DNA of 48,456 bases, taken from assembly GCF_003611635.1 (NCBI RefSeq), contig NZ_RAVZ01000023.1, positions 1-48,456 of the forward strand. Reading direction: 5' to 3'. The position numbers and the translations under genes are program-made. Within the stretch, counting starts at the first letter, position 1. Each line of letters opens with the position of its first letter. The notes below the pieces were generated by a model. That model was not told the origin of the DNA, made no database searches, and was given only the letters and a program-made list of their open reading frames with translations. Source of the DNA: Corallococcus terminator (GTDB lineage: Bacteria; Myxococcota; Myxococcia; Myxococcales; Myxococcaceae). This document shows, piece after piece, positions 137 through 8,185 of the stretch.

Positions 137-2428
137 ATGCTGCCCCGACTCGGCCCCGAAACAGTACGCGCCTACCTCGCACGACTTGGCGACCCGGACG
201 TCTCACTGGATGCCACTGGGCTGTCGTGCCTGCTGCGGGCCTACCTCCAGGCGTTGCCTTTCCACAACCTCACGGTGCTGGCCGGGGAGCCCTCTGCGCC
301 TGGGATTCTTTCGGTCGAGGCGGCGGTGGAGGGCAACCTCGCCGGTCTTGGCGGAACCTGCCTTGTGCTGACGGCTCCTTTCGTCGCGCTTCTTCGCGCC
401 CTGGGCTTCGAGGCGTGGCTCGCGGAGGCCACCCTTCGCGAGCCCGGCGACCACGCCGTGGGGATAGTCCGCCTGCCAGAAGGAAGATTCATCGTCGATG
501 TCGGAAGCGGGCATCCCTGCCTGCATCCGCTCCCGCTCGACGAATCGGAATTGGAATTCAAGACGCACGGAACAGCCTTCCGCTTCGAGCGGAACGGCCA
601 CGAAGGACACCGGCTGCGACGCGCCCTGCCCCAGCTTCCATGGGAGACCGTCTATCGCCTCACGCCGGAGCCTCGCTCGCATGACTCGTTCTTCCAACCC
701 GAAGCCAGTCCCTCCCTCCAAGCAGTCCGCATGAGCGATTGGGCCTGGGCTTCGGTCCGGGATGGCCGCTACCAACGTCTCGCGGGCGGTCTCGCGAACA
801 CGCGCCCGGTACCTGGCTGGGAGGCCATGGCCGAACTGCTGCACCTCACCTTCGGGTTGCCCGAGACATTGATCCAACGAGCGCTCCACACCTTGCGCCA
901 GCGGGTCCCCGCCCTCCTGGAGGGCGTCCGCCCCCCTCGGCGCTCCCTGCGCGTCATCGTGTCACTGGCGGTCACCGACCGGGCTGAAAGCGCCGGGGAG
1001 TTGCTCCAATCCCTTATCGAAAACCTTGGTGTTCGTGCGCAGGACTCGGTCGGAGTGCTCATCCTCGACAACGGAAAGGGGCATGCACAGGAGCGCGAAA
1101 CGGCGCTTGAAGGGGTTCTTGAACACTCCCGTGAGCAGGGACTTCAAATCACCCGACAGACAGCGCGGGACGAACTCGAGCGCCTCGCCCCATCCCAGCG
1201 GTGCGGTCTGCTCCCCGGGAACCTCGATGTTCCGCTCCCCATTGGGGCCTCCCGCGCCCTCCAGACAGCACTCCTCCACGAACACCTGCGCACAGGTTTT
1301 CTCGGACTGCCGCACCCAGGGGATGGCGGAGGGCCGGTGGCCGTCTGGATGCTGGACGACGACCTGTCCTTCCGGAGGCTTCGTGACACCTCCGAAGGGT
1401 TCGTGGAGGAACCCATCAAGGACCTGTTCGACCGAATCGAAGCACTCTGGGCGGAACATCCCGAAGTGTCCGTCGCGCTCGGCACCTGCACGGGGGCTCC
1501 GCCCATTCCAGGCTATGCCACCCTCGGCGTCCAGGTGCGCGACCTGGCCGGAAACATCCAAGCGCTGGCGGAACGAGAGCCCGGCTCCAACTGGTCTCCC
1601 CCACCGGGTCCTCGTCACCTGCCCGACTACTACTATGACCATGCCCGAGGCTCGGTGGATCACCTCCGGACGGTTTTCCCCTGGACGCCGCCGGGACGAG
1701 CCCCCTGGCAGGTGCGTGATGCCTTTCGAACGCTCTGCGCGGCATTCACCCGGGTGCCTCACGGTCAGCAGGTCACCCGCCCCCTGCTCTACCAGCCGGT
1801 GGACACCTTGACGCCGAGCCGTCACCGGGGGGGCAACGCACTTTTCCTCGACCTGGACGCACTGGTGGCGGTGCCCTACCCCTTACTCCGTGGCGAGGAG
1901 GGGGTAATGACCCGACGTGCCGACACGCTCTGGGCCCACCTCCTCGCGCGAGAACCCCTGCTCCGCCTCGTGCAGGCGGAACTGGATCTGCTCCACGGAC
2001 GCCGCGACGGGGATGGCAACTCGCCGCTCGCCACAGACAAGCCGGACGTTGTCGCGCTTCGCGCGTTCGTGGAAGGCCAGGAACGAGGGGTGGTGCTCGC
2101 AAGACTTCTGGAGCACACGTCCCCCGTGACGTCATCCACCGCCGAGCGCGAAGTGCTTTCGCGGCGCGTCCTGCTCGCCCGCGGACGAGAGGCCGTGCGG
2201 CAGGAGGCGGAGCAGGCCCGAAGCGCGCTGAGCCATCCCAAGGCCTGGTGGTGGCGCGACGAAGAACATGCCGCGACAGCCAGAGCCTGTCTGGTCGCGC
2301 TGGAGCAGGTGGAAGTGCTGGCGTGCGCCGTGGATGCTCTCGTGGACCCGTCGCTGCCCGAGCGACTGGCGGACTTCGCGCGACAGGTGGTCGCGATCCT
2401 ACCGACCTGGAGGGCAACATGGGGCTGA
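137..2428 (+). CDS. arylamine N-acetyltransferase-like domain fused to a glycosyltransferase-like domain
   Basis: This 763-residue protein appears to join two enzymes. Residues about 10-200 resemble arylamine N-acetyltransferases: LPFHNL near 40, a GGTC block with Cys75, His106 in GDHAVG and Asp121 in VDVGSG. The 15-residue His-to-Asp spacing matches the Cys-His-Asp triad of that family. From about 270 a GT-A-like fold begins with RVIVSLAVTDR, then ILDNG at 309-313 and an acidic WMLDDDL motif (Asp407-409) typical of nucleotide-sugar and metal binding. The C-terminal 200 residues are helical and unassigned. The ATG follows AGAAGGG, and the gene overlaps the next by 10 bases. The acceptor and sugar donor are unknown. 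Acyl transfer onto a glycan or amine is inference from the neighbours, which are sugar-modifying enzymes. Confidence 0.7.
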   Translation: MLPRLGPETVRAYLARLGDPDVSLDATGLSCLLRAYLQALPFHNLTVLAGEPSAPGILSVEAAVEGNLAGLGGTCLVLTAPFVALLRALGFEAWLAEATLREPGDHAVGIVRLPEGRFIVDVGSGHPCLHPLPLDESELEFKTHGTAFRFERNGHEGHRLRRALPQLPWETVYRLTPEPRSHDSFFQPEASPSLQAVRMSDWAWASVRDGRYQRLAGGLANTRPVPGWEAMAELLHLTFGLPETLIQRALHTLRQRVPALLEGVRPPRRSLRVIVSLAVTDRAESAGELLQSLIENLGVRAQDSVGVLILDNGKGHAQERETALEGVLEHSREQGLQITRQTARDELERLAPSQRCGLLPGNLDVPLPIGASRALQTALLHEHLRTGFLGLPHPGDGGGPVAVWMLDDDLSFRRLRDTSEGFVEEPIKDLFDRIEALWAEHPEVSVALGTCTGAPPIPGYATLGVQVRDLAGNIQALAEREPGSNWSPPPGPRHLPDYYYDHARGSVDHLRTVFPWTPPGRAPWQVRDAFRTLCAAFTRVPHGQQVTRPLLYQPVDTLTPSRHRGGNALFLDLDALVAVPYPLLRGEEGVMTRRADTLWAHLLAREPLLRLVQAELDLLHGRRDGDGNSPLATDKPDVVALRAFVEGQERGVVLARLLEHTSPVTSSTAEREVLSRRVLLARGREAVRQEAEQARSALSHPKAWWWRDEEHAATARACLVALEQVEVLACAVDALVDPSLPERLADFARQVVAILPTWRATWG

Positions 2429-3465
2429 AGTTCCTCGTCACTGGCGGATACTTCGACTCCTCTGGCGAAGGGGTTGTCTGGCATGTCGACCTGGAGCGCG
2501 AGCAAGCGGAGTCCTTCATCCGCTGGCTCCCTCCTGAGCACCTCAATGTGCCACGCAAGGGCTTCGCGGGCGGTTGCAGGGCAAGCGACGGTCACCTCTA
2601 CGTCGCCGCGCACTGTGCCGTCGTCCGCATCGATCCGTCACGCGCTGAAGTCTCGGGGGTACTGCATCAGCCGAGCTTCAATGACATCCATCATGTCGCC
2701 GAATCGTCAGGACGCCTGTACATCGCCAATACCGGTCTGGATGCAGTGGACCTCCTCGACCTGGAGGGCCGATTCATCGGCTCGCATGCACTTCTGCCTG
2801 CCTGGGCAAACCACCGAAGGATGTCCGGTCAGGATCCGGCCCGGTGGGATGAGGTGCTGAACCCTGGATGGAGTGGTGAGATACCGGCGCCATGGCCCCC
2901 GCGACAAACAGGGGATGGGTACCATGATCTCGGGCCCCGACGCGGGGACATGCCTTTTGCCCGACTCAAGGTTCCAGACCACCTTCATCCGAACCATGTC
3001 TCCCCCACCTCGAAACAAACCCTGGTGACCTGCCTTGACGATGGCACGGTGCGCGATCTCCGCACCTTCGAGACCGTGCTGACCTTGACCGGAATGAATC
3101 CACACGACGGCTTTCTCGCGGCCGACACATTCTGGCTGACGACCATCGATGGGCGGGTACATGCCGCCCCCATGCGGGATGGCCGGGTCGCGGGAGAAAC
3201 AAAGGTGCGATGCCGCGTCTTCGAAACGGGCCATGCGGGCTGGTGCCGCGGATTGTGGACGGATGGCCACCTGCTCGTCGTGGGACTCACTGAACTCCGA
3301 CGAAATCGAATGCCTCGCTATCGCTGGGCGGACCGGGAGCCGGAAGGCACGGAGACCTCCGTGCTGTTGTTCGAGCTCTCCGAGGGGCGTCTGCTCGCAC
3401 GGGTGGAACTCACCGACCGCGAACGGCACTCCAAGATCTATAGCATCCTGCCATGGGAAACCTGA
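2419..3465 (+). CDS. putative beta-propeller protein of unknown function
   Basis: The protein has 348 residues. The start at 2419 is chosen because GGAGGG lies five bases upstream, inside the end of the previous gene, implying translational coupling. Repeated beta-rich blades with Gly/Asp turns are visible: FNDIHHVAESSGRLYIANTG, HPNHVSPTSKQTLVTCLDDG and AAPMRDGRVAG. The D-I-H-H and N-T-G patterns resemble SMP-30/YVTN-type six- or seven-bladed propellers. No signal peptide is evident, so it is probably cytoplasmic. Co-expression with the acetyltransferase/glycosyltransferase fusion and a deacetylase suggests a role in the same glycan or metabolite pathway, for example as a lactonase-like or binding protein. 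I do not recognise a named family. Confidence 0.65.
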   Translation: MGLKFLVTGGYFDSSGEGVVWHVDLEREQAESFIRWLPPEHLNVPRKGFAGGCRASDGHLYVAAHCAVVRIDPSRAEVSGVLHQPSFNDIHHVAESSGRLYIANTGLDAVDLLDLEGRFIGSHALLPAWANHRRMSGQDPARWDEVLNPGWSGEIPAPWPPRQTGDGYHDLGPRRGDMPFARLKVPDHLHPNHVSPTSKQTLVTCLDDGTVRDLRTFETVLTLTGMNPHDGFLAADTFWLTTIDGRVHAAPMRDGRVAGETKVRCRVFETGHAGWCRGLWTDGHLLVVGLTELRRNRMPRYRWADREPEGTETSVLLFELSEGRLLARVELTDRERHSKIYSILPWET

Positions 3466-3466
3466 G

Positions 3467-3604
3467 ATGAGCGCGCATCGGAAACAGGATACCGAGACTG
3501 CGGGGGCCTCACGCGATGCCAAGGGGTGGGTGAACGGCACCAAGGCATTGCCAGGATTGGCCCACACACGGAGGCCTGACGTCATGCCGGGGCAGGACCA
3601 GTGA
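3467..3604 (+). CDS. possible 45-residue linker ORF
   Basis: An ATG one base after the previous stop opens a 45-codon frame whose TGA (3602-3604) overlaps the GTG start of the deacetylase gene as GTGA. The product (MSAHRKQDTETAGAS..., ending PGQDQ) is polar and without recognisable domains. The tight junction at both ends is what translated operon members show, and without it there would be a 135-base gap inside an otherwise compact operon. There is no strong Shine-Dalgarno apart from possible read-on from the preceding gene. It may instead be untranslated spacer. Confidence 0.35.
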   Translation: MSAHRKQDTETAGASRDAKGWVNGTKALPGLAHTRRPDVMPGQDQ

Positions 3605-4524
3605 CTGACGTGCTCATGCTGCATCGAGTGATACCGAACCAGTCGACGGCTTTCGATCTGCCGTCCTGTTACCGGCTGCGTGGAACGGCACTCACGCCGG
3701 AGGAGTTTGACCGGGTGCTGGAGGCAGGTTCATTCCTAACGCTCGATGAGGTGGTGGACGCACTTGGTCGCGGGGCGCCACCTCCTCCGGGACAGGTGCT
3801 CACCTTCGATGACGGCTACCGCGAATGGGCGGAGTTCGTCGCACCCCGGCTCAAGGAGCGGGGACTTCCCGCGACCTTCTTTCTCTGTCCGGCGTTCCTG
3901 TCTGAGGCGAAGGAAGCCCATCCAGTGGATGTCTTCTATTGGCTGCTCGACCATGCGGAGTGCCCACGCTTCGATTTCCAGTTGCCCGATGGCACCCGGG
4001 CGCAGGGCTCACTAGAGACCCGCGAGGACAAGGGTGCATTGGTGATGGGCGCCCTGAAGCGCTTCGTGGTGCGGGGCGAGCGCGCCCAGGTTCGCGAGGT
4101 TCTCAGGCGGCTGGCCCAGGCACTGCGCATCGACGTCCCTGACGGATTGGCAGAAGCGCTCTATCCGTCGGAGCGCGACCTGGCGGGCCTGGCGTCGGCC
4201 GGACATCGGCTGGGCGGGCATGGGGTGAGCCATCAGCACTTGCCAGCCTTGAGTGAGACCGAGGCCTCCGTGGAGATCTCCAGCTCTCTGGATTGGATCG
4301 CGAGGCTGTCGGGGGGTCCCCCCGCGCCGTTCGCATATCCAGATGGTGCCTTTGATCCGGCCACCGAGCGTCACGTCGCGCAGGCAGGAGCCACATGCGC
4401 CCTGACCTGCGTTCCGGGAGCCGTCACGCGCGAGTCCGCTCTCTTCCGACTGCCTCGGGAGTTCGTAACTCCCTGGCATCCTCGGGTTGCGTCCCCATCT
4501 CCTCCGAGTGGGGGTGCCGCTTGA
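3601..4524 (+). CDS. NodB-type polysaccharide deacetylase
   Basis: A carbohydrate esterase family 4 protein of 307 residues. The conserved motifs are in order: TFDDG (68-72) with the catalytic and metal Asp pair, HGVSH (His207 and His211) as the metal-binding H-x3-H, and FAYPDG (244-249) lining the active-site groove. The family removes N- or O-acetyl groups from chitin-like, peptidoglycan or exopolysaccharide sugars. There is no signal peptide, so it probably acts on a cytoplasmic lipid-linked or nucleotide-linked intermediate. The start is GTG at 3601, overlapping the stop of a small ORF. The sequence between motifs 1 and 2 (about 100-200) is longer than in minimal NodB domains. The exact substrate cannot be told from sequence. 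Confidence 0.85.
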   Translation: MTDVLMLHRVIPNQSTAFDLPSCYRLRGTALTPEEFDRVLEAGSFLTLDEVVDALGRGAPPPPGQVLTFDDGYREWAEFVAPRLKERGLPATFFLCPAFLSEAKEAHPVDVFYWLLDHAECPRFDFQLPDGTRAQGSLETREDKGALVMGALKRFVVRGERAQVREVLRRLAQALRIDVPDGLAEALYPSERDLAGLASAGHRLGGHGVSHQHLPALSETEASVEISSSLDWIARLSGGPPAPFAYPDGAFDPATERHVAQAGATCALTCVPGAVTRESALFRLPREFVTPWHPRVASPSPPSGGAA

Positions 4525-4600: not shown

Positions 4601-5563
4601 ATGAGTAAGAGCATCCTCGTGACTGGTGGCGCCGGGTTCATCGGCTCGCATGTGGTGGAGGCCCTGCTCGGGGAAGGACGCGAGGTCGTCGTCCTCGATG
4701 ACCTGTCGGCGGGGCGGATGGACAACCTCCCAGCGCGCGAGCCTCGCCTGGAGGTCCTCGTCGGTTCGATCCTCGATCCGGAGTTGTGCGCCCGGGGGAT
4801 GCGTCACTGCGAGGCCGTGGTGCACCTGGCGGCCCTCAACTCCGTGCAGCGCTCGCTGCACGACCCCAGGTCGGTGGTCGACGTCAACGTGATGGGCTCG
4901 CTCAACGTGCTGGAGGCTGCACGGGCCGCCGGCGTGTCACGGGTCGTCTACGCGAGCAGCAGCTCCGTCTACGGGGCGTCCCTGACGCTTCCGAAGCGGG
5001 AGGACCAACCGATGGCCGCCGGCAGCCCCTACGCGGCAACCAAGGCGGCCCTGGAGCAACTCGCGCAGGCCTGGACGCGCGGGTTCGGACTGCCGACCGT
5101 CGGCCTGCGCTTCTTCAATGTCTTTGGCCCCAGACAGAGGCCCCACTCTCCCTATGCGGCGGTCGTTCCCCTCTTCATCGAAGCCTGCCTGCGCGGAGGC
5201 GAATGCATCATCCATGGCGATGGGGAGCAGACGCGCGACTTCAGCTACGTTGAGAACGTGGTCACCGCGAACCTGCGGGCATTGGTCGCGGGGGAGACCT
5301 GCTTCGGGAACGTGTACAACATCGCCGCAGGGGGACGGATCTCCATTCGGATGCTCCACGAGGAGATCGCCACCCTCCTCCGGCGCGAGCAGCCTCCGCG
5401 TTACGAACCCTGGCGTCGTGGCGACACGCGGCACAGTCAGGCGGATGGCACGGCGGCGGCGCGGGACATGGGGTGGACCCCGAACGTATCCTTCGAACAG
5501 GGGATTCGGAGAACGGTGGCCTGGTATGCCGAGCGCGAAGAGTCCTGGTGGCACAACGAATGA
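4601..5563 (+). CDS. NAD-dependent NDP-sugar epimerase (extended SDR)
   Basis: The protein has 320 residues, the usual size for UDP-glucose/UDP-GlcNAc 4-epimerases. The N-terminal VTGGAGFIGS is the Rossmann NAD-binding loop. Ser residues at 119-122 precede VYG, and Tyr144-x3-Lys148 is the catalytic pair. LRFFNVFGPRQ and TRDFSYVENV are typical of NDP-sugar epimerases/dehydratases. PYAAVVPLFI after the FGPRQ block recalls UDP-GlcNAc C4-epimerases such as WbpP. The ATG at 4601 is chosen because it precedes the Rossmann strand by three residues and has GAGG upstream. It probably supplies an epimerised nucleotide sugar for the glycosyltransferases nearby. Substrate identity is inferred. Confidence 0.85.
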   Translation: MSKSILVTGGAGFIGSHVVEALLGEGREVVVLDDLSAGRMDNLPAREPRLEVLVGSILDPELCARGMRHCEAVVHLAALNSVQRSLHDPRSVVDVNVMGSLNVLEAARAAGVSRVVYASSSSVYGASLTLPKREDQPMAAGSPYAATKAALEQLAQAWTRGFGLPTVGLRFFNVFGPRQRPHSPYAAVVPLFIEACLRGGECIIHGDGEQTRDFSYVENVVTANLRALVAGETCFGNVYNIAAGGRISIRMLHEEIATLLRREQPPRYEPWRRGDTRHSQADGTAAARDMGWTPNVSFEQGIRRTVAWYAEREESWWHNE

Positions 5564-5575
5564 GCGCGGACCTGG

Positions 5576-6046
5576 CTATCTAAGCGCCCCCGTCAGCAGC
5601 GTGACTGGCAATCCCAACGCCTTCCACCGGACATGTTCTTCATACCAGCGAAGGGCCTCTTCCAGCCCCATGGGGCGGCTGCCGGGCTCGTGGTGGGGAA
5701 GGCGGCCCAGGAACTGGCGTTCCCAGACGTCTTTCGGGGGCAGTAGCAGCAAGACCTCCTCCCCTTCGGAAAGCGGGAACAGCGCTTTCTCCTCCACCAT
5801 CGCCATGATGACAACCAGGGGAGGCAGTCCGTCATTGGCGGGATCCAGCTCCACCCGTCGGATGGCCTGGATCAGCAGGGCCTTGGCCTGCATCATTCCC
5901 TGGCGCGGCTTCGCGGGGTCGACCAACGGGTGAAGCATCTGTGCGAGTTCCAGGACACGTGGCGCGGGCGAAAGGGCCTGGAAGTCCAGAGCCCAGGTCG
6001 TCTTCCCCGCGGCGGGAGGTCCCACCAGCCAGGACAGTTGTTTCAT
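5576..6046 (-). CDS. small P-loop kinase/ATPase-like protein
   Basis: The protein has 156 residues with a clear Walker A at the N-terminus, VGPPAAGKTT (8-17), then a hydrophobic strand LVVIMAMVEE (about 77-86) and VLLLLPP, consistent with a P-loop kinase core. The C-terminal half has charged helices with Arg residues (WERQFLGRLPHH, LRWYEEHVRW) that could form the lid. The start overlaps the stop of the upstream glycosyltransferase gene as ATGA, so the two are translationally coupled. The stop lies 12 bases from the convergent epimerase stop. A small-molecule or sugar kinase role is plausible but not shown. Confidence 0.6.
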   Translation of the reverse strand: MKQLSWLVGPPAAGKTTWALDFQALSPAPRVLELAQMLHPLVDPAKPRQGMMQAKALLIQAIRRVELDPANDGLPPLVVIMAMVEEKALFPLSEGEEVLLLLPPKDVWERQFLGRLPHHEPGSRPMGLEEALRWYEEHVRWKALGLPVTLLTGALR

Positions 6047-6798
6047 GGATCCACCCCGAACAACCGCCGCGCACGCTCCCTGAAGGCAGACACCCGTTCA
6101 GGCCCCATGAGCGCGGAGTGCTTGGCGAGAAAGGCCCTCATCCCAGCCACGTTGGTGGGCGAACCTGCGGTGGACAAGCGAAGCTCCGGATGGACGTGGA
6201 AATACACCCGAGGTTGCGTGTTGCGTCCGTACCGGAGCCCCGGAAGGCGGGCCAGCCGGACGCCGAGATCCATGTCGTGGAAGGAAGGCAGCGACGGATC
6301 AAAGCCTCCCGACTCAAGAAACGCAGCGCGGGTGATGAACAGGTTCGACCCCCGGAGACCGGGATTGCGGACCAGGAAGTCGTCCGGATGAAGATTTGCC
6401 GGTGGAACCTTCTCCGGCACCACCTCCCGCGCCCCCTCTTGCTGTCGGACCTTGAGGAAGGCGGTAAGCACGAGCTCCAGCCGGCTGGTGAGCGCCAGGT
6501 GTTCCGCCTCGAATAGGTAGGCCGGGTCCCAGGTGTCGTCATCGTCAAGGAAGGCGAGGAACCGTCCCCGTGCCAGCGAAGCGCCCAGGTTGCGGGCACG
6601 CGCCGCCCCGTGAGGCGCCTCGTGACGAACCCAACGCACCCCAGGGCCGGAAGCGAAAGGCTGGGGTACGTCTCCATCGTCAATGACAATCACCTCGTCG
6701 GGACGACGGGTCTGGTCCGCGACGCAGGTCAAGGCTCGCCGCAGGAGACCCGGACGATGGCGTGTCGGGATGATGACCGTGAGCGTGCAAGCACTCAC
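6043..6798 (-). CDS. family 2 glycosyltransferase
   Basis: A 251-residue GT-A glycosyltransferase. TVIIPTRHRPGLLRRAL (7-23) is the classic GT2 start and EVIVIDDG holds the first nucleotide-binding Asp pair. GAARARNLGASLARGRFLAFLDDDD ends in the metal-binding DDDD at 85-88, and SFHDMDLGVRL supplies the later acceptor-side acidic residues. No membrane segments are seen, so this is a soluble or peripheral enzyme that transfers one sugar from a nucleotide donor. It overlaps genes on both sides by four bases, forming a tight three-gene minus-strand operon with the GT-B-like and P-loop proteins. Confidence 0.85.
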   Translation of the reverse strand: MSACTLTVIIPTRHRPGLLRRALTCVADQTRRPDEVIVIDDGDVPQPFASGPGVRWVRHEAPHGAARARNLGASLARGRFLAFLDDDDTWDPAYLFEAEHLALTSRLELVLTAFLKVRQQEGAREVVPEKVPPANLHPDDFLVRNPGLRGSNLFITRAAFLESGGFDPSLPSFHDMDLGVRLARLPGLRYGRNTQPRVYFHVHPELRLSTAGSPTNVAGMRAFLAKHSALMGPERVSAFRERARRLFGVDP

Positions 6799-7967
6799 CG
6801 CGGACCTCTTTGTCGGGCGGGCCGAGCGGCCAGGACCTTCCGAATCTCCTCGGCGGCGGTTGCTCCGCCCGGAGGACCGAGTTTCCGCATGAAGGCCTCC
6901 TGGGCCGAGACCTGGCGCACAAGCTCCGCGGGGCCTCGGTTGAGTTGCGCCACCACCCGTTCGCGCACCGCGGCCCGGCCATGGACGTCGGCATCGAAAC
7001 GGGCCACCAACTCAAGCAACCGGGCCGTTCCCTCTGCCTCTGGAGCCCGTGGATCAACGGGATGATCCGGGTACAGCTCCGTGAGGTTCAGGCCCCGAGG
7101 CGCCAGGTCGTGCTCCTGATAGACGGCGAGCTGACACACCTGCGTGAGATTCTGGGGAGGGAGAAAGCTGGTGGGAATGCCCAGCGCGAAGCCCTCGAAG
7201 GGCGCATTCAATCCCGGCGAGGTCAGCAACTGGCTGGAAGAGGCCAGCACATCCAGATACCGCTCCTGGGGCAGGGTCTCCACCCGCAGGTCACCATCGG
7301 CGCCTTCTTCCCGGATGCGCGCGACGGCCTTCGCTCCAGTCGCGATGGTCACCGCCTCGAAGCCCAGATCCGTGGAGGAAAGGACCTCCCGCAGCAGGCG
7401 CGTCATCGAGGACGGGTAGCAGGTGTTCCGCCCCGGAACGATGTCCGGAGAGTGAGCGCCACCGTAGTTCACCAGGAGATGGGGTGGGGCACGCCGGTAC
7501 TGTCGGAGAGGTGGTGGAGCGATGAGAGGGCCCACGACCTTCGGTGGGACCATGTCCCGGCCATACCGTTCGAGGATCTCATCCACCCCCGGGAAGTTCT
7601 CGATGACGTAGCCACTGGCATGGCGCATGGCGGGGGTCATCTGTCGCTTCATCCAAAACAGGATGTCGACGAAGACCAGGGGGAGCTTCAGTTCCTGCAC
7701 GAGGCCAATGTTCGTGTTGTTTGACACGGCGAGGTACAGGTCGGCAGTGGCCAGGACGGAAGCGTGTTGGCGCACCGAGGCCGGATCCTTCACATCGCAA
7801 GGAAGAATCCGGTCGAACGTCGCAGGATCGCATTGCTCCCGCACCGGCCCTGTGGCCAGCACCGTGAACGAGGCTTCCGGCAGGTGCGCCGCCAACGTCC
7901 GGAGCGCGGAGATGGCTCCGTAACAGAACGGGTTGGGATCACAGATGATCTGGAGCGGTCGGCGCAT
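6795..7967 (-). CDS. GT-B-like glycosyltransferase-related protein
   Basis: The protein has 390 residues. The two-domain layout and the motif at about 245-276 (SQLLTSPGLNAPFEGFALGIPTSF, then LPPQNLTQ) match the donor-site region of GT-B enzymes such as MurG, where a SPG-x-EA-like loop and a Pro/Gln-Asn stretch contact the nucleotide sugar. LLVNYGGAHSPD (164-175) is the usual start of the C-terminal Rossmann domain. The pattern also recalls cytosylglucuronate-synthase-like enzymes, but that is only a weak impression. It is the first gene of the minus-strand trio. Its start lies 118 bases from the tRNA-Leu 3' end, with that tRNA's terminator in between. Confidence 0.6.
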   Translation of the reverse strand: MRRPLQIICDPNPFCYGAISALRTLAAHLPEASFTVLATGPVREQCDPATFDRILPCDVKDPASVRQHASVLATADLYLAVSNNTNIGLVQELKLPLVFVDILFWMKRQMTPAMRHASGYVIENFPGVDEILERYGRDMVPPKVVGPLIAPPPLRQYRRAPPHLLVNYGGAHSPDIVPGRNTCYPSSMTRLLREVLSSTDLGFEAVTIATGAKAVARIREEGADGDLRVETLPQERYLDVLASSSQLLTSPGLNAPFEGFALGIPTSFLPPQNLTQVCQLAVYQEHDLAPRGLNLTELYPDHPVDPRAPEAEGTARLLELVARFDADVHGRAAVRERVVAQLNRGPAELVRQVSAQEAFMRKLGPPGGATAAEEIRKVLAARPARQRGPR

Positions 7968-8091: not shown

Positions 8092-8103
8092 TTCTCTTCG
8101 GAG

Positions 8104-8185
8104 TGCCCAGGGCGGGACTCGAACCCGCACGCCTCACGGCGCCACCACCTCAAGATGGTGTGTCTACCAATTCCACCACCTGGGC
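8104..8185 (-). tRNA. tRNA-Leu (anticodon GAG)
   Basis: An 82-base class II tRNA. The acceptor stem GCCCAGG pairs with CCTGGGC, the D-arm holds GTGG...GGTAGAC, and the anticodon stem CCATC/GGTGG encloses the loop TTGAGGT with GAG at 8149-8151. A short variable arm GCGCC-GTGA-GGCGT precedes the T-arm GCGGG-TTCGAGT-CCCGC. The discriminator is A and the 3' CCA is not encoded. It reads CUC and CUU codons. It is 84 bases downstream of secG on the same strand, so it may be processed from a secG read-through transcript, an arrangement also known from secG-leuU in E. coli. Confidence 0.95.

Follow-up and report, generated by a model that had tools for sequence, protein, structure and literature searches.

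A natural fusion of an N-acetyltransferase-type domain and a GT-A domain within an accessory gene cassette of Corallococcus terminator

The window analyzed here is a 48,456-nucleotide stretch of a Corallococcus terminator contig. A single ORF at positions 137–2428 (+), whose ATG start is embedded in TGATG, codes for a 763-residue protein (NAT-GT) that combines an arylamine N-acetyltransferase (NAT)-fold domain with a GT-A glycosyltransferase-type domain. On the same strand lie a conserved second cassette gene (2422–3465), which shows a very weak DUF4915/TIGR03032 match and is presumably beta-propeller-like, a polysaccharide deacetylase gene (3601–4524; PF01522), and a gene for an NDP-sugar epimerase/dehydratase of the extended SDR type (4601–5563; closest models TviC, LegB, and RmlB, none above the cut-off). 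On the opposite strand are genes for a small P-loop (AAA_33/kinase-like) protein (5576–6046), for which a LOG-like SLOG fusion is present in L075, a GT2 glycosyltransferase (6043–6798), and a GT-B-type protein related to cytosylglucuronate (CGA) synthase (6795–7967). The last of these matches TIGR04467 with 43 bits, below the equivalog cut-off of 300. The eighth gene of the cassette, encoding an M20 hydrolase, is located directly upstream in related loci, and in the window genome its orthologue is situated at the end of contig C22. A group of seven genes reappears in Corallococcus, in Archangium, and in three further genomes from the same family; the same genes adjoin NAT-GT in seven genomes with 58–92% identity, and most of them are also found in distant loci.

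The cassette adjoins tRNA-Leu(GAG) (8103–8185, −) downstream of secG in three genomes of the Corallococcus group, and seven other genomes possess this tRNA gene and lack the cassette. The GC content of the cassette is 65.9%, compared to 70.3% in the rest of the window. The tRNA site and the lower GC content fit an acquired island. In a search for an empty insertion site, the genes upstream of the C. praedator cassette did not turn up close to secG in any of the seven genomes without the cassette, one of which offered only 2 kb for the search.

Nine more genomes were found to encode the fusion. Eight of these proteins aligned over their full length, namely those of Corallococcus praedator, a Myxococcaceae MAG, Archangium violaceum, three other genomes of the same family, and two MAGs, and the tenth fused protein is L071. 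The recurrence means that the fusion is natural, and neither chance nor a sequencing-error or assembly join of two genes, the latter being a possibility raised in an earlier note on this DNA, explains it. The distribution is patchy, with the fusion present in 3 of the 16 genomes of the genus and matches to the GT-A profile in 9 of the 195 genomes of the phylum sample. In G052, the two halves are encoded by separate genes, the stop and start codons of which overlap as GTGA. Within the genus, dN/dS is 0.20–0.36 across both halves, indicating purifying selection. A phage or plasmid origin was rejected, as neither viral contigs nor plasmids contained a full-length homologue. A literature search on NAT-glycosyltransferase fusions found nothing about such a system.

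The NAT-fold domain occupies residues 1–262 (137–922, +). Residues 29–185 match Pfam Acetyltransf_2 (PF00797; E = 7e-15, 55.9 bits against a cut-off of 22.8), and the closest solved sequence found by phmmer is the amide synthase GdmF (E = 5e-9), with the NAT triad of which C75, H106, and D121 line up. An AlphaFold2 model of the fusion protein was built from nine orthologues. In this model, residues 1–262 gave a Foldseek TM-score of 0.79 to M. loti NAT1, and VIA matched residues 8–253 to NAT structures with Z-scores of 17–22 (maximum 21.9), so that both searches found the three-domain NAT fold. The domain thus shares its fold, its Cys-His-Asp triad, and its domain order with the arylamine N-acetyltransferases, including GdmF, but differs from that family in being joined to a GT-A domain, in replacing the usual PFEN with PFHN, in its short domain II loop, and in the loss of the cysteine from three members. 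The PFHN motif and the short loop also distinguish the cassette-associated NATs from the ordinary myxobacterial ones, 18 of which were separated from the former by a 100/100 branch (ord_L029, labelled as an ordinary NAT, is a wrong reading frame and was ignored).

The NAT is an accessory module, since the catalytic cysteine is gone in 3 of the 10 fused proteins (replaced with alanine in L037, proline in L038, and arginine in L039) and most of the wider GT-A relatives have no NAT. L039 has also lost the histidine and most of domain II, and all three proteins retain every GT-A signature residue despite the loss of the cysteine. The GT-A domain is present in 16 of the 377 genomes from the phylum to which G195 belongs, in most cases with no NAT fused to it; free NAT genes are present in L078 and L081. 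In view of the cysteine losses and the missing NAT in most distant clusters, acylation would not be essential to the pathway. A stronger reading is that no member, the window protein included, has a catalytic NAT, the domain being a remnant or scaffold, and that the GT-A half alone works. The second part of the NAT indeed changes faster than the GT-A half. However, all three triad residues are retained by the window protein, by its two closest relatives, by L036, and by every distant NAT, whether fused or free, and the NAT part shows dN/dS of 0.23–0.36 within the genus. We therefore regard a universally inactive NAT as unlikely, although it is the strongest of the alternatives considered here. 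As a separate observation, an ORF at 5502–7814 of L086 appears by eye to encode a NAT followed by a phytanoyl-CoA dioxygenase-like (PhyH-like) domain.

The GT-A domain and a C-terminal helical region make up residues 265–763 (929–2425, +); the boundary with the NAT is near residues 262–265. This half has no Pfam match, and the test with Pfam Glycos_transf_2 (GT2) was negative. Its signature residues are DDD (407–409), D469, DYYYD (497–501), RGGN (564–567), RRxD (593–596), and HxR (620–622), among which DDD, D469, RRxD, and HxR are near-invariant over 26 GT-A homologues. Modelled alone from these 26 homologues, residues 261–763 adopted a GT-A fold with a helical C-terminus (pLDDT 89.8, pTM 0.91). 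When PDB sequences were searched with the GT-A profile, only chance matches were returned, and Foldseek found generic GT-A enzymes at modest E-values. The best folds in VIA were those of MtdL (Z = 17.6, 284 residues) and rice UAM2 (Z = 16.9), both of which match across the entire domain, C-terminal helices included, and the next fold was that of ppGalNAc-T2 (Z = 15.4). Inverting GT-A transferases such as TarP/TarS and chondroitin polymerase, and the GT-A enzyme ppGalNAc-T2, have the GT-A core with DXD in common with the window protein, but their Z-scores are lower and they mostly cover a smaller part of the domain.

Taken as a whole, this anatomy of the fusion protein appears to us almost certain. 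From the letters alone, the earlier note had recognized Cys75-His106-Asp121 as a NAT triad, a GT-A-like second half containing DDD, and a deacetylase and an epimerase as neighbors, all of which hold; the structure prediction and fold search that it proposed for the two halves recovered both folds. Its two-domain layout also stands, with the split moved from 265/266 to residues 262–265. The structural closeness of the second half to the GT75 NDP-sugar mutases is a point that it did not contain.

MtdL is a GT75 NDP-pyranose mutase, the key residues of which are DDD109–111, the nucleophile R159, D195, R257, the base D260, and H287/R289 (PMC9937993). In the window protein, DDD407–409, D469, R593xxD596, and H620xR622 follow in the same order with spacing close to that of their MtdL counterparts, so that the metal/base pattern of GT75 (DDD, R257xxD260, and H287xR289) is present (PMC9937993). 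These similarities raise the possibility that the C-terminal half is a GT75-kind pyranose/furanose mutase or arginine autoglycosylator that supplies a furanose donor to the neighboring transferases, with the NAT acting separately. The nucleophile argues against it. Six bacterial and archaeal GT75/STELLO proteins have RGxP with an invariant arginine, whereas the motif reads TGxP in the window family, the position being occupied by threonine, serine, or another residue in 25 of the 26 homologues and by arginine in 1, as placed by motif alignment. In addition, none of the 26 family members matched PF03214, none of 193 genomes from the phylum contained a PF03214 match, and a profile-profile comparison with GT75 was not significant (hhalign P = 0.09). 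Several distant ORFs, moreover, fuse the GT-A domain to a GT2. (The PDB sequences were retrieved with an Arabidopsis RGP1 probe, and the conclusions rest on the retrieved sequences.) Compared to MtdL and the plant UAM/RGP proteins (PF03214), the half shares the whole-domain fold with the C-terminal helices and the DDD, R..D, and HxR elements, but it has no significant sequence similarity, lacks the nucleophile arginine, and is about 130 residues longer. It is an undescribed family without a Pfam model that resembles the GT75 mutases in overall architecture and is not a GT75 member. Because the self-glycosylated arginine is missing, a true transferase is more likely than a mutase; this choice is decided only by that residue, which was placed by motif alignment. 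We consider the mutase reading improbable, at somewhat below the standing of an inactive NAT. This GT-A half could reveal how mutases that glycosylate their own arginine and ordinary transferases are related.

Fusions tie the components of the cassette functionally. Several distant ORFs, as well as L040, fuse the GT2 to a GT-A domain of the type in residues 265–763, and further fusions join a LOG-like protein to a deacetylase and, as judged by eye, a NAT to PhyH. Near some copies are genes for NADAR with GTP cyclohydrolase II, asparagine synthase, carbamoyltransferase, UDP-sugar dehydrogenase, and PhyH; PhyH genes were also noticed near the L041 and L035 copies. Three ORFs of 2016–2033 residues (L080, 3467–9517; L082, 4549–10650; L083, 8692–14763) combine GT2, GT-A, methyltransferase-like, and polysaccharide deacetylase regions, the methyltransferase-like region having been seen in L080 and L083, the two ORFs scanned. 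A myxobacterial ORF of 1725 residues (L040, 349–5526) contains GT2, GT-A, a kinase-like stretch (by eye), a methyltransferase, and further GT2 domains. The neighbors in L076, L077, L078, L081, and L086 include AAA_15/AAA_21, WYL, DUF4011 helicase, MTES_1575 nuclease, SLOG cluster4, and NADAR genes, a repertoire that resembles defence-type islands. PADLOC matched none of the eight cassette proteins to known anti-phage defence systems, and a known defence system was rejected as an identity of the cassette.

The LOG-like and CGA-synthase-like enzymes together carry out the opening steps of cytosine nucleoside antibiotic pathways, which is why we suggest a nucleoside glycoside. From its gene content, the cassette is expected to synthesize a small glycoside that may be a nucleoside, the product class being a guess. 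The protein encoded at 6795–7967 and its four homologues all match TIGR04467 weakly, and some distant cassettes contain a LOG-like gene, as in CGA synthase pathways of the blasticidin S/mildiomycin type; the scores, however, are far below the cut-off, and many other genes differ. Nothing about a NAT-GT cassette emerged from literature searches on myxobacterial CGA synthase, on TIGR03032/DUF4915, or on NADAR clusters. A different product, a cell-surface or exported polysaccharide whose repeat unit is decorated by the fusion protein, would accommodate the deacetylase, the GT2s, and the SDR with its nearest models TviC and LegB, and the kinase-like and methyltransferase domains of the 1725-residue relative recall chain-terminating enzymes. 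Yet the scanned genes include no flippase, polymerase, initiating transferase, or exporter, and the CGA-synthase-like, LOG-like, and NADAR genes better suit a small nucleoside-type product. A polysaccharide thus seems to us a poor candidate, slightly poorer than a mutase. A rifamycin/geldanamycin-type amide synthase, in which the NAT closes a macrolactam as the earlier note had mentioned, is barely conceivable despite GdmF being the closest solved sequence, because the E-value to GdmF is in the same range as those of ordinary NATs, no polyketide synthase or other polyketide-type gene was present among the scanned neighbors, and the GT-A partner would be left unexplained.

In the reading that we prefer, to which we give an even chance as a whole, NAT-GT is a naturally bipartite enzyme, and the accessory biosynthetic cassette to which it belongs would make a small glycoside. 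The C-terminal domain would be a Mn/Mg-dependent inverting glycosyltransferase that uses an NDP-sugar as its donor and glycosylates a small acceptor of the amino-sugar or nucleoside type, with Asp596 as the putative base and DDD together with His620 as the predicted metal site. The epimerase would supply a donor, and the GT2 and the CGA-synthase-like GT-B may add or start other sugars. The deacetylase would free an amine on the glycoside, which the NAT domain is predicted to N-acylate via a Cys75 thioester. In the lineages without Cys75, the acylation step may have been dropped, with the NAT domain kept only as a structural part. The earlier note had envisaged acyl and sugar transfer as a single step of one chain; the fusion itself is confirmed, and an obligate coupling is weakened by the cysteine losses, the split pair in G052, and the NAT-less homologues. 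The Cys-less orthologues, the naturally split pair, and the NAT-less homologues also provide ready controls for a natural acyltransferase-glycosyltransferase fusion. More tentatively, and with less than even confidence, we propose that the cassette belongs to an undescribed mosaic system for nucleoside-type or amino-sugar glycosides that travels in accessory islands. Its core would be a new GT-A family, related to GT75 by fold, that has switched from self-glycosylation to an outside acceptor, and its freely shuffled components would take any form between eight individual genes and single 2,000-residue proteins. Both in myxobacteria and in other soil bacteria, the product of the cassette may be a new glycoside.

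To judge from the contig ends, the sequence breaks off upstream of the fusion gene at what resembles an IS insertion in a TCTAGA site. Since the M20 gene ends on C22, the element probably separates M20 from NAT-GT in the window strain, and it may affect expression. By eye, positions 1–128 of the window and 1–118 of G000:C22 (L116), both read inward, share a common inverted repeat (TCTAGAGCG[T/C]CGA[A/T]CAGGTT).
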